From NCBI RefSeq assembly GCF_000613125.1, contig NZ_HG964497.1, positions 4,489,127 to 4,553,126 of the forward strand: DNA of 64,000 nucleotides, in the 5' to 3' direction. Positions within the stretch are counted from its first letter, which is position 1; each line of letters starts with the position of its first letter. Shown here in pieces: positions 20,091 through 41,182 of this stretch. A model generated the notes under the pieces. That model saw nothing but the letters and a program-made list of their open reading frames with translations. It was not told the DNA's origin and did not search any database. This DNA is from Bacillus sp. EB01 (lineage in GTDB: Bacteria > Bacillota > Bacilli > Bacillales > Cytobacillaceae). Both the position numbers and the translations under genes were made by a program.

Positions 20091-22148
20091 ATGGGAGAAT
20101 CGAATTTCGTCAAAACAGTCTGTGGCTATTGCGGAACAGGATGCGGCCTGGTTCTTGAAGTGGTGAATAATAAAATTGTGAAAATTCGCGGTGATAAAGA
20201 CGCACCTGTCAATAAAGGCCAGACATGTGTAAAGGGCTCCTTCGCATATGAGTATGTTCATGCACCAAACAGGCTAAAGGCCCCGATGGTTCGCAAGGCT
20301 GGAGAACTTGTGGAGGTTTCCTGGAATGAAGCTTTGAATTTCATTGCTGAAAAGCTAGGATCAATAAAATCTGTATTTGGCCCCGAAGCCATTTCCATGT
20401 TTGCCTGTGCAAGGACTACAAACGAATCAAATTATGTTACTCAAAAATTTATGAGAACGGCAATTGGCAGCAATAATATCGACGGTTGCAACCGAACGTG
20501 ACACGCTCCTAGTGTTGCCGGTCTGGCAACTGTGTTCGGAAGCGGATTTCCAACAAATACGCTTGAGGATTTTGATAAGGCGGAAGTGCTTCTCCTGATG
20601 GGCTCAAATACGTCAGAAGCGCATCCGATTATTGCAAATCGCATCAAGAAAGCGGTTAAATCAGGCTTAAAGATGATTGTAATCGACCCAAGAAAAATAG
20701 ATATGGTCAAACAATCTCACCGTCATCTTCAGCTTAATGTCGGTTCTGATATTGCATTAATTAACGCCCTCATGAATGTGATTATTAATGAAGGTCTATA
20801 TGATACTGGTTTCATTTTAAGGCATACTGATGAGTTTGAGGCATTGAAGGAACGTGTGAAATTGTATACGCCTGAATTTGCTTCTGAAATCACCGGTGTA
20901 CCGGCTGAAGATATCAGGGAAACAGCTCGTGAATATGCGGGCTCTAATGGCTCAATGATTGCATATACTCTTGGGATTACTGAACATCATTGCGGAGTAA
21001 ATAATGTATTTGACATCGCCAACCTTGCTCTTTTAACAGGCAATATCGGAAAAGAAGGCACTGGGATTATGCCTTTGCGCGGACAGAATAATGTTCAGGG
21101 TGCCGGAGATATGGGCTGCCTTCCTAACCAGCTTACAGGAGCGATCAGCCTTGCCAATGAAGAATACCGGGCACGTTATGAGAGTGAATGGGGCATGGCG
21201 ATCAATCCAATAGCGGGAGATACACAAACAAGAACGTTCGATCGGATTGAGAATGGAAGCTTGAAGGCTCTTTATGTTATCGGAGAAAATCCGCTGTTGG
21301 CGGATGTTCATATGAATCATACTCGAAAACTGCTGGAAAACTTGGAACTTTTGATTGTTCAGGATATTTTCCTAACCGAAACAGCACAGATGGCAGATGT
21401 AGTCCTTCCCGCCCGTTCCTGGGGAGAGGTGGATGGAACATTCACGAATACAGACAGAAGGATTCAGCGTGTCCGTACAGCTGTTGAAGCACATCCGAAT
21501 ACGAAGGAAGATTGGCAAATCCTTTGTGAATTGTCCACATTGATGGGCTACCCAATGAGTTATGAAAGCAGTGAAGAAATCTGGAATGAGGTAAGAAAAC
21601 TCGCATGGGAAATGTATGGCGGGATATCTTATCAGAGGCTTGACGAGAATTACTCTTTGCATTATCCTTGCCCGGACGAAAGCCATCCAGGAACGTTCGT
21701 GATGCATGAACGTTTCCACACGGAAGCAGAGAATATCCGTAAGTCGCCGTTTGTTCCAGTTGATTATACTGAACCGCTTGAATTGCCGGATGAGGAGTAT
21801 CCATTTACACTGACAACCGGCAGGAGGTACGAATCCTATAACACTCATACACAAACCCGCCACTATGCTCCGGGAGTTAAAATTAAACAGACCGAGGAAA
21901 CTGTTGATATCCACCCGTCAGATGCCGAGAAACTTGGCATTGAAAATGGTGACCTTGTCCATGTTAGCTCACGGCGGGGTGAGTTGACAGTTAAGTGCAA
22001 AGTAACCGAACAGGTAGTTCCTGGTCTTGTGTTCATGAGCTTCCACTGGCATGAAACACCGACCAATGTGCTGACATTAAATGAATATGACCCAATATCC
22101 GGAACAGCGGAATTCAAGGCATGTGCACTTGCCATCCGCCCGGCTTAA
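20091..22148 (+). CDS. fdhF: Selenocysteine-containing formate dehydrogenase, catalytic subunit (TGA read through)
   Basis: One frame of 685 residues if the in-frame TGA at 20499-20501 is read as selenocysteine (residue 137). The N-terminus has the [4Fe-4S] site C-x2-C-x3-C..C (VCGYCGTGCG, then GQTCVKG). The recoded codon lies in DGCNRT-U-HAPSVAGL, the position of Sec140 in E. coli FdhF (RV-U-HGPSVAG), with the invariant His next to it. Mo-bis-MGD signatures follow: PLRGQNNVQGAGDMG and VVLPARSWGEVDGTFTN. The ATG has GGAGGG upstream. A SECIS hairpin follows the TGA. It would oxidise formate to CO2 in the cytoplasm; its electron-accepting partner is not adjacent, and the Sec machinery is not in the window. 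Confidence 0.93.
20499..20530 (+). promoter_or_regulatory. UGA-Sec codon and bacterial SECIS hairpin
   Basis: The UGA (20499-20501) is followed 12 nt later by a perfect 6-bp stem GUUGCC (20514-20519) and GGCAAC (20525-20530) enclosing a GGUCU loop (20520-20524). The same GGUCU is in the apical loop of the E. coli fdhF SECIS, where the G-U is contacted by SelB. The loop begins 19 nt after the UGA, within the usual spacing window of bacterial SECIS elements. Confidence 0.9.
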
Positions 22149-24937: not shown

Positions 24938-24971
24938 GGGCTGCATCCACTTTTGGATGCAGCCCTTTTTG
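24938..24971. terminator. Bidirectional terminator between the small membrane gene and the NarK-PAS gene
   Basis: GGGCTGCATCC/GGATGCAGCCC stem, 11 bp, with TTTTT on the plus side and TATTG-type tail on the minus side. Confidence 0.88.
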
Positions 24972-24972
24972 T

Positions 24973-26460
24973 TCAATCTGTCTCCCTAAACATGCCTACA
25001 TAATTTATTGTTTTTCCGTTTTCATCCTTAATTGCTCTGATGATCAAATATTCCTGATAAATGTCACCATTTTTTCGCTTGTTCCAAATAAGCCCTTCCC
25101 AATGGCCTTTAATTTTGAGGTCTTGCCACATTCTTTTGTAAAATTCAATATCATGTTCACCAGACTGGAGGACGCTTGGGGTTTTTCCATGTACCTCGTC
25201 AATCGTGTATCCGGTAATCCTTGTGAAAGCTGGATTGATTTTTAGGATGATTCCATGCGGATCTGTCAATGTGATTCCTTCATTCATGAGGGAAATAATC
25301 TCTTCAGAAACGCGCAGCTTTTCATAACTGATTATCCACCAAACAAAGATAAGTGCAGCAAGTGCAAACTGCGACAATACCATGAAACCGAACGTATATT
25401 GGTGTGTATACTGATACATTGCACCAACAACTATTGGAGGAAATGTAGCTCCAAGACCGCCAATTGCTGTAACCACGCCATTTACAATACCCGGCTGCTT
25501 ATAAAAATGAAGCGGCACCAGCTTGAATATTGCTCCACTTCCTAATCCTGAACAAATCGCTACGACTAAACAGCCAAAAGAAAAAATCGGCAGGGATGGA
25601 GTAAAGGATAGAAGGACGCCTGAAAGCATTAGACCTAAGAAACTAATCATTAGGATATGCCAGGGATTGAACTTATCAGCGAGCCAGCCACCGACAACAC
25701 GGGATACAATACTGGTGAATATAAACAAAGCAGTCCTTAAACCTGCATCTATCTCTAGCAAGCTAAAGTTCCTAACCATGAAGATCGGCAAGTACATAGT
25801 GAAGGTTAGAAATACCCCAAAGGTAATGAAGTAAAAAAAGCTAAGCAGCCAGAGCCTTTTATTCTTGTATACTTTAAAAAATTGGTCTCTTAAAGGTTCC
25901 TCTTCAGTCTTTTCATATTTGTCACCCAATAGGAAGTTTAGCAACGCTAAAAATAGTACTAAATAAAGATAAATTTCTACCGTATCTCTCCAGCCAATTT
26001 TTGAAGCAAGAACTGGTGCGATAAAGGCAGTCAAGGCAGTACCGATGGTGCCGATTGCATAAATTCCATTGACCATTCCATGCTTTGTATCCGGAAAATA
26101 CTTTGGCAAGGATGTTGTTCCCACTGAGAAAACCGCTCCTCCGAAACCTAGAAACAAGCCAGCAGCGAGCAGGGGAAGCACTGAATTGGAATATTGGACG
26201 AGCAATATAGGAACAATCAATATGAAGAAACTGACACTAAACAATATTCTTGCCCCAAATCTCCCTGTCAAATATCCGGCAGGCAACCTGAATAGAGACC
26301 CAAGAAAAACAGGGAGGGCAATAACCCAAGCTGTTTGAGTTGTAGTTATGTTTAAATCAACCTCAATAAAGGGCATTAATGAGGCAATAATCACCCACAC
26401 CATAAATCCGCCGATGAGGCTAGCTGTTTGCAAAACTAATTGCCTTACTCCCTGATTCAT
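24973..26460 (-). CDS. NarK-type nitrate/nitrite MFS transporter fused to a C-terminal PAS domain
   Basis: A 495-residue protein. Residues 1-376 form 12 membrane helices of an MFS carrier close to Firmicute NarK/NasA proteins: RLPAGYLTGRFGAR between helices 2 and 3, and a glycine-rich GTIGTALTAFIAPVLA like the nitrate signature. The last about 110 residues are a PAS domain: EGITLTDPHGIILKINPAF, ITGYTIDEVHGK, SGEHDIEFYKRMWQ and WNKRKNGDIYQEYL, with no kinase or cyclase after it. The joint is continuous in frame. Transporters of this family are normally near 390-420 residues with no sensor. The ATG is at 26460 with AAAAGGGG upstream. Confidence 0.9.
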   Translation of the reverse strand: MNQGVRQLVLQTASLIGGFMVWVIIASLMPFIEVDLNITTTQTAWVIALPVFLGSLFRLPAGYLTGRFGARILFSVSFFILIVPILLVQYSNSVLPLLAAGLFLGFGGAVFSVGTTSLPKYFPDTKHGMVNGIYAIGTIGTALTAFIAPVLASKIGWRDTVEIYLYLVLFLALLNFLLGDKYEKTEEEPLRDQFFKVYKNKRLWLLSFFYFITFGVFLTFTMYLPIFMVRNFSLLEIDAGLRTALFIFTSIVSRVVGGWLADKFNPWHILMISFLGLMLSGVLLSFTPSLPIFSFGCLVVAICSGLGSGAIFKLVPLHFYKQPGIVNGVVTAIGGLGATFPPIVVGAMYQYTHQYTFGFMVLSQFALAALIFVWWIISYEKLRVSEEIISLMNEGITLTDPHGIILKINPAFTRITGYTIDEVHGKTPSVLQSGEHDIEFYKRMWQDLKIKGHWEGLIWNKRKNGDIYQEYLIIRAIKDENGKTINYVGMFRETD

Positions 26461-26766
26461 AAAGATCCCCTTTTTTTAACATACAGCACTTGGGAATGAC
26501 TGTATTTACTTTTTATAAGCTAACAATAATATAAGTATATTAAATCGGTGTCCAAAAAACCATTAAGTAAATAGAAATATCCAGTTGCAAGCAGATTAGG
26601 AAGCCTTAATAAAACACAAATGAATAGTTTCTCTTGGTTTTTTTAAAAGCTGGATTTATGATTATAAAGAAATTGAAGGTGGTATACGATTAGGTATCAA
26701 TCAAGCCTATGAAAACCGAAAGAGAAAAGATTATAAATTGTTTGGCCACCAAAGGAGTGAAAAAAA
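26461..26766. other. Divergent intergenic region, no gene seen
   Basis: 306 AT-rich bases between the divergent NarK-PAS and RCK genes. They must contain both promoters, but no consensus pair stands out. No Fnr-type palindrome and no riboswitch-like structure was found. Confidence 0.4.
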
Positions 26767-39838: not shown

Positions 39839-41182
39839 ATGGCTACCGACAAGAATGGAAACTATATAAAAGGTACCAAAAAAGAACTGCCTGAAGGTTA
39901 GGTTACGTATGGCTTTCGCTATACAATTTTTCCGGCTGAGGAAGATAGAAGAGTATTAGAACGCTCTTTCGGATGCGAACGAAAGGTATACAACGAGTAT
40001 GTAGCTGGACTCTACGAACACTTGGAGAAAATCGGGTTTCAAGGCGGCTATATTCAATATAAGACGCCTAACTACACCACCATCACTCAGAAATATGAAT
40101 TTCTCGATAAATCCAACGATTCGTTTGTTTACAATGATGCGAAAATCCGTTTTCAGGCTGCGGTAAAGAAATATAATGATGGATTCGCCAAAAAGTCGAT
40201 GCAGTACAAAAAAGCGGTCCGGAAAAAGATGCGAACGACTGGTTATGTTCCGACTCTGCGAGACATGAAAGGCCTCCCCAAATTCCACAGCAAGAAGCAA
40301 GGAAAGTTCAGCTACACCACCAATCAAACGAATGGAAATATTAAAATCGTCCAACGTAACGACCAATCCCTGCTATGTATCCCGAAGTTTCGTAATGGAA
40401 TCCCGATTGCCATGCATCGTGAGTTACCTAAAGAAGCGGTTATCAAGAAGGCGACCATTAAACGGGAAGGAAATCGCTATATGGTATAACTGTCTGTGGA
40501 TTTTCCAATGAAACAAGAGCCTTTACGGAGTAACATCATGGCTGATGAAGTGCTGGCTTTGGATTATAGCCAAACTGATTTATACATGGATAGCGAGGGG
40601 GGTAAAGACGGGTATCCCAGGTACCATAAGATCATTGAAAAGCGCCAAAGACGGTTGAACAAGTCATTGGCCAGGAAAAGGAATAAAGCCCTGGTCGATT
40701 CAGAGGGCAGGATTCTTTACTCAACTACTTATCAAAACATGCTTAAGAACTATCAAAAAACCATGGCCAAGGCAAAAAACCAACGGAAAGATTTTCTCCA
40801 CAAAAGAAGCAATCAGATAACCAATGATTATGCCGCTATTGTGGTGGAAGACCTGGATTTGAGCAATTTGGCACAATGCCTGTCCCTGGGCAAGAAATTG
40901 CACGACAACGGGTTCGGCATGTTCCGAACCATGTTGGAGTATAAAGCGAAGAAAAAAGGAAAGCATCTTATCTTCGCAGATAAATTCTTTCCTTCCACAA
41001 AACTATGCAGTGAATGCAATTCAAAAAAGGAAACAGTAAAACTCTCAGAGAGAGTGTATGTGTGCGAGCATTGCCGCACAAAAATGGATAGAGACTATAA
41101 TGCGGCCAGAAACCTAAAACAGTACGGAATCAGGAAACTGTCGGATTTAGGTTTTATGGCTGGGGTACCAGTGCCCGTATAG
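39839..41182 (+). pseudogene. tnpB: TnpB RNA-guided nuclease with two in-frame stops
   Basis: A single uninterrupted frame of 448 codons except for TAG at 39899-39901 (codon 21) and TAA at 40487-40489 (codon 217). Both stops are simple point changes; no frameshift is needed. The catalytic core is still readable: LALDYSQTDLYMDS (RuvC-I Asp), VVEDLDLSNL (RuvC-II Glu), zinc ribbon CSECNSKK..CEHCRTKMDRDYNAARNL (RuvC-III Asp). Translation could restart at the second part (40496), but that would lack the N-terminal guide-binding lobe. GGGAGGTG lies before the ATG. Confidence 0.88.

Follow-up and report, generated by a model that had tools for sequence, protein, structure and literature searches.

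A NarK-type nitrate/nitrite carrier that ends in a predicted FAD-binding PAS domain is a common form in Bacillales

Results and discussion

Architecture of the narK-PAS fusion

The window, the whole stretch of 64,000 nucleotides of the Bacillus sp. EB01 genome that we analyzed, contains at 24973-26460 on the minus strand an uninterrupted open reading frame of 495 amino acids in which a NarK-type carrier runs into a complete PAS domain. The features of the locus are as follows.

24973..26460, minus strand: narK-PAS fusion, whole gene including the stop codon; a single open frame, with purifying selection on both parts
25333..26460, minus strand: NarK-type MFS carrier of 12 helices, residues 1-376 (Pfam, TIGR00886, alignment to 4u4t, Foldseek)
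25282..25332, minus strand: linker, residues 377-393, a predicted extension of the TM12 helix (AlphaFold2; ungapped in 107 homologues)
24982..25281, minus strand: PAS domain, predicted FAD type, residues 394-493 (Pfam PAS_9; NifL/MmoS/Aer matches; Foldseek)
26287-26289, minus strand: Arg58 codon, aligned with E. coli NarK Arg89
25699-25701, minus strand: Arg254 codon, aligned with E. coli NarK Arg305
25126-25128, minus strand: Trp445 codon, predicted FAD contact
25081-25083, minus strand: Asn460 codon, predicted FAD contact
24938..24970, no strand assigned: candidate terminator read from the sequence, a GC-rich inverted repeat with a T-run after it (plus strand)

The repeat lies just past the fusion stop codon and is likely a terminator common to the fusion and the preceding small plus-strand gene.

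The fusion is real. Pfam places MFS_1 at residues 18-317 (E 3e-46) and PAS_9 at residues 394-492 (E 5e-15), and the AlphaFold2 model of the whole protein (mean pLDDT 88.2, pTM 0.74) shows a helical carrier followed by a PAS fold that extends to residue 493, two residues short of the stop. The one-frame fusion put forward in the original prediction thus holds, as does its claim that the carrier is the only covalent partner of the PAS domain: the protein ends with the PAS, so that the carrier is its sole covalent output. CbrA (an SLC5-kinase fusion) and Amt-kinase fusions likewise unite a carrier and a sensor module in one chain, but they have a catalytic signalling output, whereas the catalytic domain that follows the sensor in CbrA-type carrier-kinase transceptors is absent here.

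The carrier belongs with NarK and NarT

Arg89 and Arg305 of E. coli NarK bind substrate. In an alignment to 4u4t, Arg58 and Arg254 of the fusion fall at these positions, and both are invariant in 49 sequences. The eight top Foldseek matches of the carrier part were all NarK/NarU structures, the best being E. coli NarK (4u4w/4u4v/4u4t). The nearest curated subfamily is TIGR00886 (NarK), whose score of 203.4 bits lies under the 311.7 cut-off, so we file the carrier only with the Bacillales NarK/NarT clade and not under the strict model. These data identify it as a NarK/NarT-type nitrate/nitrite carrier of the NNP/MFS group, in agreement with the nitrate-type assignment made initially; transport itself is a prediction from sequence. 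Bacillales NarK/NarT proteins (B. subtilis NarK, Staphylococcus NarT) and E. coli NarK (4u4t) share the carrier fold and the arginine pair, and the Bacillales proteins also share linkage to narGHJI and include short forms that fall within the tree of the fusion. The difference is that these proteins stop after TM12, whereas the fusion continues into a full PAS domain.

Distribution and history of the fusion

Further genomes of the EB01 genus encode fusion copies at 97, 74, 62 and 61% identity. A scan of public genomes (80 loci), together with these relatives, gave 107 non-redundant full-length PAS-bearing sequences for alignment, at about 47-97% identity and spanning roughly a dozen family-level groups within Bacilli. 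When the architecture was searched for in a sample of 399 Bacilli genomes, about 67, from at least 11 family-level groups, had the PAS form, and PAS-less proteins of the carrier subfamily were found at 37 places in the same sample. A plasmid search added one full-length copy from Niallia; no feature is annotated at its position. At E 1e-45, a sample of 299 Bacillota genomes yielded no full-length fusion outside Bacilli. Copies across the genus and class rule out a fusion peculiar to one strain, a doubt raised with the original prediction, and narK-PAS is common among Bacillales and not peculiar to the genome of Bacillus sp. EB01.

In the carrier-part tree, sequences with the PAS form the background, within which PAS-less proteins occur at five separate places: a pair resembling B. 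subtilis NarK, directly followed by an fnr-like gene; a large set of small-genome proteins of about 390 aa, which we infer to be staphylococcal NarT; and three single cases. Monophyly of all PAS-bearing sequences was rejected (AU p 1.6e-96), and each short lineage taken alone was compatible with a basal placement (AU p 0.46-0.63, or a clade already present in the quick tree), which is explained by the long outgroup branch. The PAS sequences fit a single origin (AU p 0.5), and no PAS remnants were seen past the stop codons of the short genes. These data are most simply read as a single fusion with several later losses, the number and direction of the single losses not being firm. Since PAS-less relatives sit among PAS-bearing ones, the domain looks modulatory and repeatedly lost. 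Loss has left the carrier nearly unaltered, with 136 of 177 conserved columns the same in all five PAS-less lineages, and in these columns of five short lineages we saw no carrier docking surface decaying upon loss of the PAS; the PAS therefore appears to be an add-on, dispensable for transport. Genome G174 encodes three narK genes of this subfamily, two with the PAS and one without (L133; G174:C23, which is L146), and is a natural setting in which to look for division of labour among narK forms.

A conserved joint under purifying selection

In the AlphaFold2 model a single unbroken helix (residues 355-391) spans TM12 and the linker, its end near residues 381-390 being modelled at lower confidence (pLDDT 67). 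From TM12 to the end of the PAS (residues 355-493) the 107 homologues show zero indels, and the joint is intact in the 97%-identical copy from a second genome of the genus. The frameshift or assembly error at about 25330 that could have explained the fusion is ruled out by these 107 intact homologues, and a chance origin by the conserved joint together with selection: in sequence pairs at 86-98% identity the carrier had a median dN/dS of 0.038 and the PAS one of 0.053, so both parts are under purifying selection.

These values bear on the idea that the PAS is a functionless passenger of a single old fusion. PAS-less forms at several places in the tree show that the domain can be lost, as that idea would have it, but the dN/dS of the PAS, its invariant cofactor residues and the lack of indels over a dozen or so families are not what a passenger should display; purifying selection largely refutes this explanation, which we consider very improbable.

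An invariant linker length and a single predicted helix favour mechanical coupling over a loose tether. The PAS could instead be an assembly module that dimerises or stabilises the carrier, or tethers nitrate reductase, without any redox switching; PAS domains are typically dimeric, a rigid linker would suit a fixed assembly, and NifL oligomerisation depends on regions flanking its PAS domains (PMC3466315). However, invariance of the flavin contacts and of linker length is not expected of a mere tether, and the linker of NarK1-NarK2 fusions is, by contrast, highly variable in length (PMC5217062). We regard an assembly role as unlikely.

The PAS domain resembles flavin-binding sensors

The PAS domain matches MmoS, NifL and Aer without gaps, and the best PDB match of a PAS-only model was the FAD-PAS of NifL, 2gj3 (Foldseek TM 0.90, rmsd 1.3, 34% identity). 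Trp445 and Asn460, the counterparts of Aer Trp70 and Asn85, are present in all 107 homologues. In Aer, Trp70 stacks on the adenine and Asn85 hydrogen-bonds the flavin ring (PMC9668731), and the Falpha Trp is the primary determinant of FAD binding (PMC10468136). The flavin-facing position of Aer H53 and NifL E70 is Pro428 in 103 of the 107 sequences; with Pro rather than His there, the domain is NifL-like rather than Aer- or MmoS-like, and its redox tuning may differ from that of Aer. By sequence and modelled fold, then, the domain is kin to the flavin-PAS group of NifL, MmoS and Aer, and FAD is strongly predicted as its cofactor, ahead of any other. NifL PAS1, MmoS and Aer share with the fusion the ungapped match and the conserved FAD-contact Trp and Asn; their PAS domains act on a kinase, a NifA-binding protein or a chemoreceptor, whereas the only covalent partner here is the carrier.

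Other cofactors fit less well. The query PAS has no Cys, and neither Cys nor His is conserved in the domain across the 107 homologues. The absence of an adduct-forming Cys argues against a LOV (photo-flavin) PAS, the lack of a conserved His makes a FixL-type heme unlikely, and the lack of both residues argues against an Fe-S cluster. Between the heme and flavin suggested for this domain at the outset, the evidence thus points to a flavin/redox-type PAS. Conceivably, the domain gates the carrier in response not to FAD redox state but to a different ligand (nitrite, NO, a quinol or a metabolite), given that the cofactor is a prediction and that the Aer H53 position is Pro; but the conservation of W445 and N460, the NifL fold match and the missing heme ligand speak against this, and we give it a low probability.

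The original prediction also likened the domain to the triple PAS of the histidine kinase at 17.2 kb. The kinship is distant, the identity to the three kinase domains being 29-33%, and NifL PAS1 and the PAS of PAS-GGDEF-EAL proteins are closer. The latter reach 52% identity, linker included, and are the closest outside the family among the sequences compared. A close copy of the kinase PAS is thereby ruled out.

Genomic neighbourhood and regulation

PAS-bearing genes keep the company of nitrate respiration. Among 47 dereplicated PAS-bearing loci, 34 have narG, narH, narJ or narI within about 5 kb, 37 are near nar or nreB-nreC, and 45 are near nar, nre, Mo-cofactor, NasC-like or Fnr-type genes; in these neighbour clusters the NarG, NarH and NarI representatives were named by NCBIfam and the others by inspection or weaker family matches. 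Counting PAS-bearing and short forms jointly, 11 of 126 homologues have a perfect FNR box upstream, where 0.085 would be expected. Upstream of the EB01 fusion gene the strict pattern found no FNR box. An inverted repeat, ATACAG-N13-CTGTAT, occurs at window positions 26477-26503 just before the fusion start codon; it is present in the 97% relative, absent from the other relatives examined, and a possible operator.

The neighbourhood also bears on a transceptor reading, one of those offered in the original prediction, in which the carrier itself would sense nitrate/nitrite flux and the PAS would relay the signal to NreB, to the neighbouring PAS kinase or to nitrate reductase. PAS domains often mediate protein contacts, the fusion PAS is closely related to that of GGDEF-EAL signalling proteins, and nreB-nreC-like genes flank 19 of the 47 loci. 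That is under half, however; within the window no signalling gene is adjacent to or co-oriented with the fusion, and conserved FAD contacts fit sensing better than output. We doubt that the fusion is a transceptor.

In the genus of EB01 the fusion gene stands apart from nar genes. Nearby in the EB01 window are a formate-dehydrogenase-like gene and the gene of an MHYT/three-PAS histidine kinase; of the four relatives examined, two have another NarK-type gene directly after the fusion gene. Neither a complete NarI nor a molybdopterin enzyme of NarG length was found in the EB01 genome, which does encode a NarI-like protein of only 140 aa beside Mo-cofactor genes (L186:9459-9878, minus strand), a NapA above cut-off and, below cut-off, a NasC-like reductase with Rieske and NreBC-like partners. 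With NapA and the NasC-like protein present and no full NarI or NarG-length enzyme, the enzyme that the carrier serves in EB01 is not settled. Encoded alongside the NasC-like cytoplasmic reductase at L193:2751-9257 are a membrane protein, a ferredoxin, a Tat-type Rieske protein and an NreBC-like pair; genes like these adjoin narK at two other loci (L145 and L146) and lie near some PAS-bearing loci, and the set is possibly a quinol-linked alternative nitrate reductase.

A possible redox switch acting in cis on nitrate/nitrite flux

Oxygen or redox inactivation is described as a general property of respiratory nitrate carriers, the signal being the redox state of the cell; the control point of nitrate uptake is the carrier itself, by no known mechanism (PMC3445494). 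M. tuberculosis NarK2 is a respiratory nitrate carrier whose activity tracks cell redox state, and its mutation at F19, P50, R58, G69 or P84 impaired or abolished activity (PMC3445494); these residues bear the same numbers as invariant residues of the fusion, which is a coincidence of numbering between unaligned proteins. Nothing reported in PMC3445494 points to a PAS domain in NarK2, whose redox mechanism is left without explanation there, whereas the fusion carries a flavin-type PAS.

We propose, as the best explanation and at close to an even chance, that an FAD redox switch in the PAS acts in cis on nitrate/nitrite flux; gating of this flux by redox or a ligand was the other function suggested in the original prediction. 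Oxidation and reduction of the putative FAD in a cytoplasmic PAS, rigidly coupled to the last membrane helix of a NarK/NarT-type carrier, would report the redox state of the cytoplasm or respiratory chain, and the continuous TM12-linker helix would carry the conformational change that turns nitrate import and nitrite export up or down. The carrier would probably be closed in the oxidised, aerobic cell, with flux allowed upon reduction. The substrate arginines, nar linkage, FNR boxes, FAD residues and fixed TM12-PAS spacing all speak for such a switch, and a cis-acting flavin PAS is, for the fusion protein, the most economical hypothesis. Points against it are the nearly unaltered carrier of the PAS-less lineages, the Pro at the flavin-facing position, the lower modelling confidence near residues 381-390 and the failure to find a complete NarI or a NarG-length molybdopterin enzyme in EB01. 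It is not a universal mechanism, since some NarK proteins lack a PAS and none is reported for NarK2, which is nevertheless redox-controlled. A broader possibility, which we think rather improbable, is that this carrier redox switch, by shutting nitrate import and nitrite export in the aerobic cell, is the long-sought molecular basis of the control of nitrate transport by oxygen in Bacillales and that its repeated loss marks lineages in which control has moved elsewhere.

If the cis-acting switch exists, the output of its PAS domain would, unusually, be a transporter and not a kinase, cyclase or DNA-binding domain. With a natural carrier whose flavin-type PAS is fused in fixed geometry, and with natural homologues at about 50% identity that lack the PAS, redox control can be tested directly.

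Both the carrier and the sensor module are known; their combination is not described in the searchable literature, where we found no account of an MFS-PAS or NarK-PAS fusion and outside which most subscription journals lie. In Bacillus gene inventories, narK genes linked to nar operons measure 1500, 1503 and 1497 bp, and a shorter narK1 of 1185 bp is listed for B. licheniformis, with no mention of a PAS in the accessible parts of these sources (PMC3475470, PMC4719734). The three longer genes match the fusion in length.

Other features of the window and genome

The formate-dehydrogenase-like molybdopterin enzyme (window 20091-22148, plus strand) contains an in-frame TGA at 20499-20501 (CNRT-TGA-HAPSVAGL), directly followed by a small hairpin that folds no better than shuffled sequences. 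The EB01 genome has a tRNA-Sec (65 bits, above the Rfam cut-off), and the TGA probably encodes selenocysteine. A second molybdopterin oxidoreductase with one in-frame TGA (G000:C1:564693-566324, L197) is probably another selenocysteine enzyme. At window positions 40022-41182 (plus strand), an OrfB/TnpB-type transposase-like coding region, judged by eye, occupies two adjacent frames and looks like a decayed insertion element.
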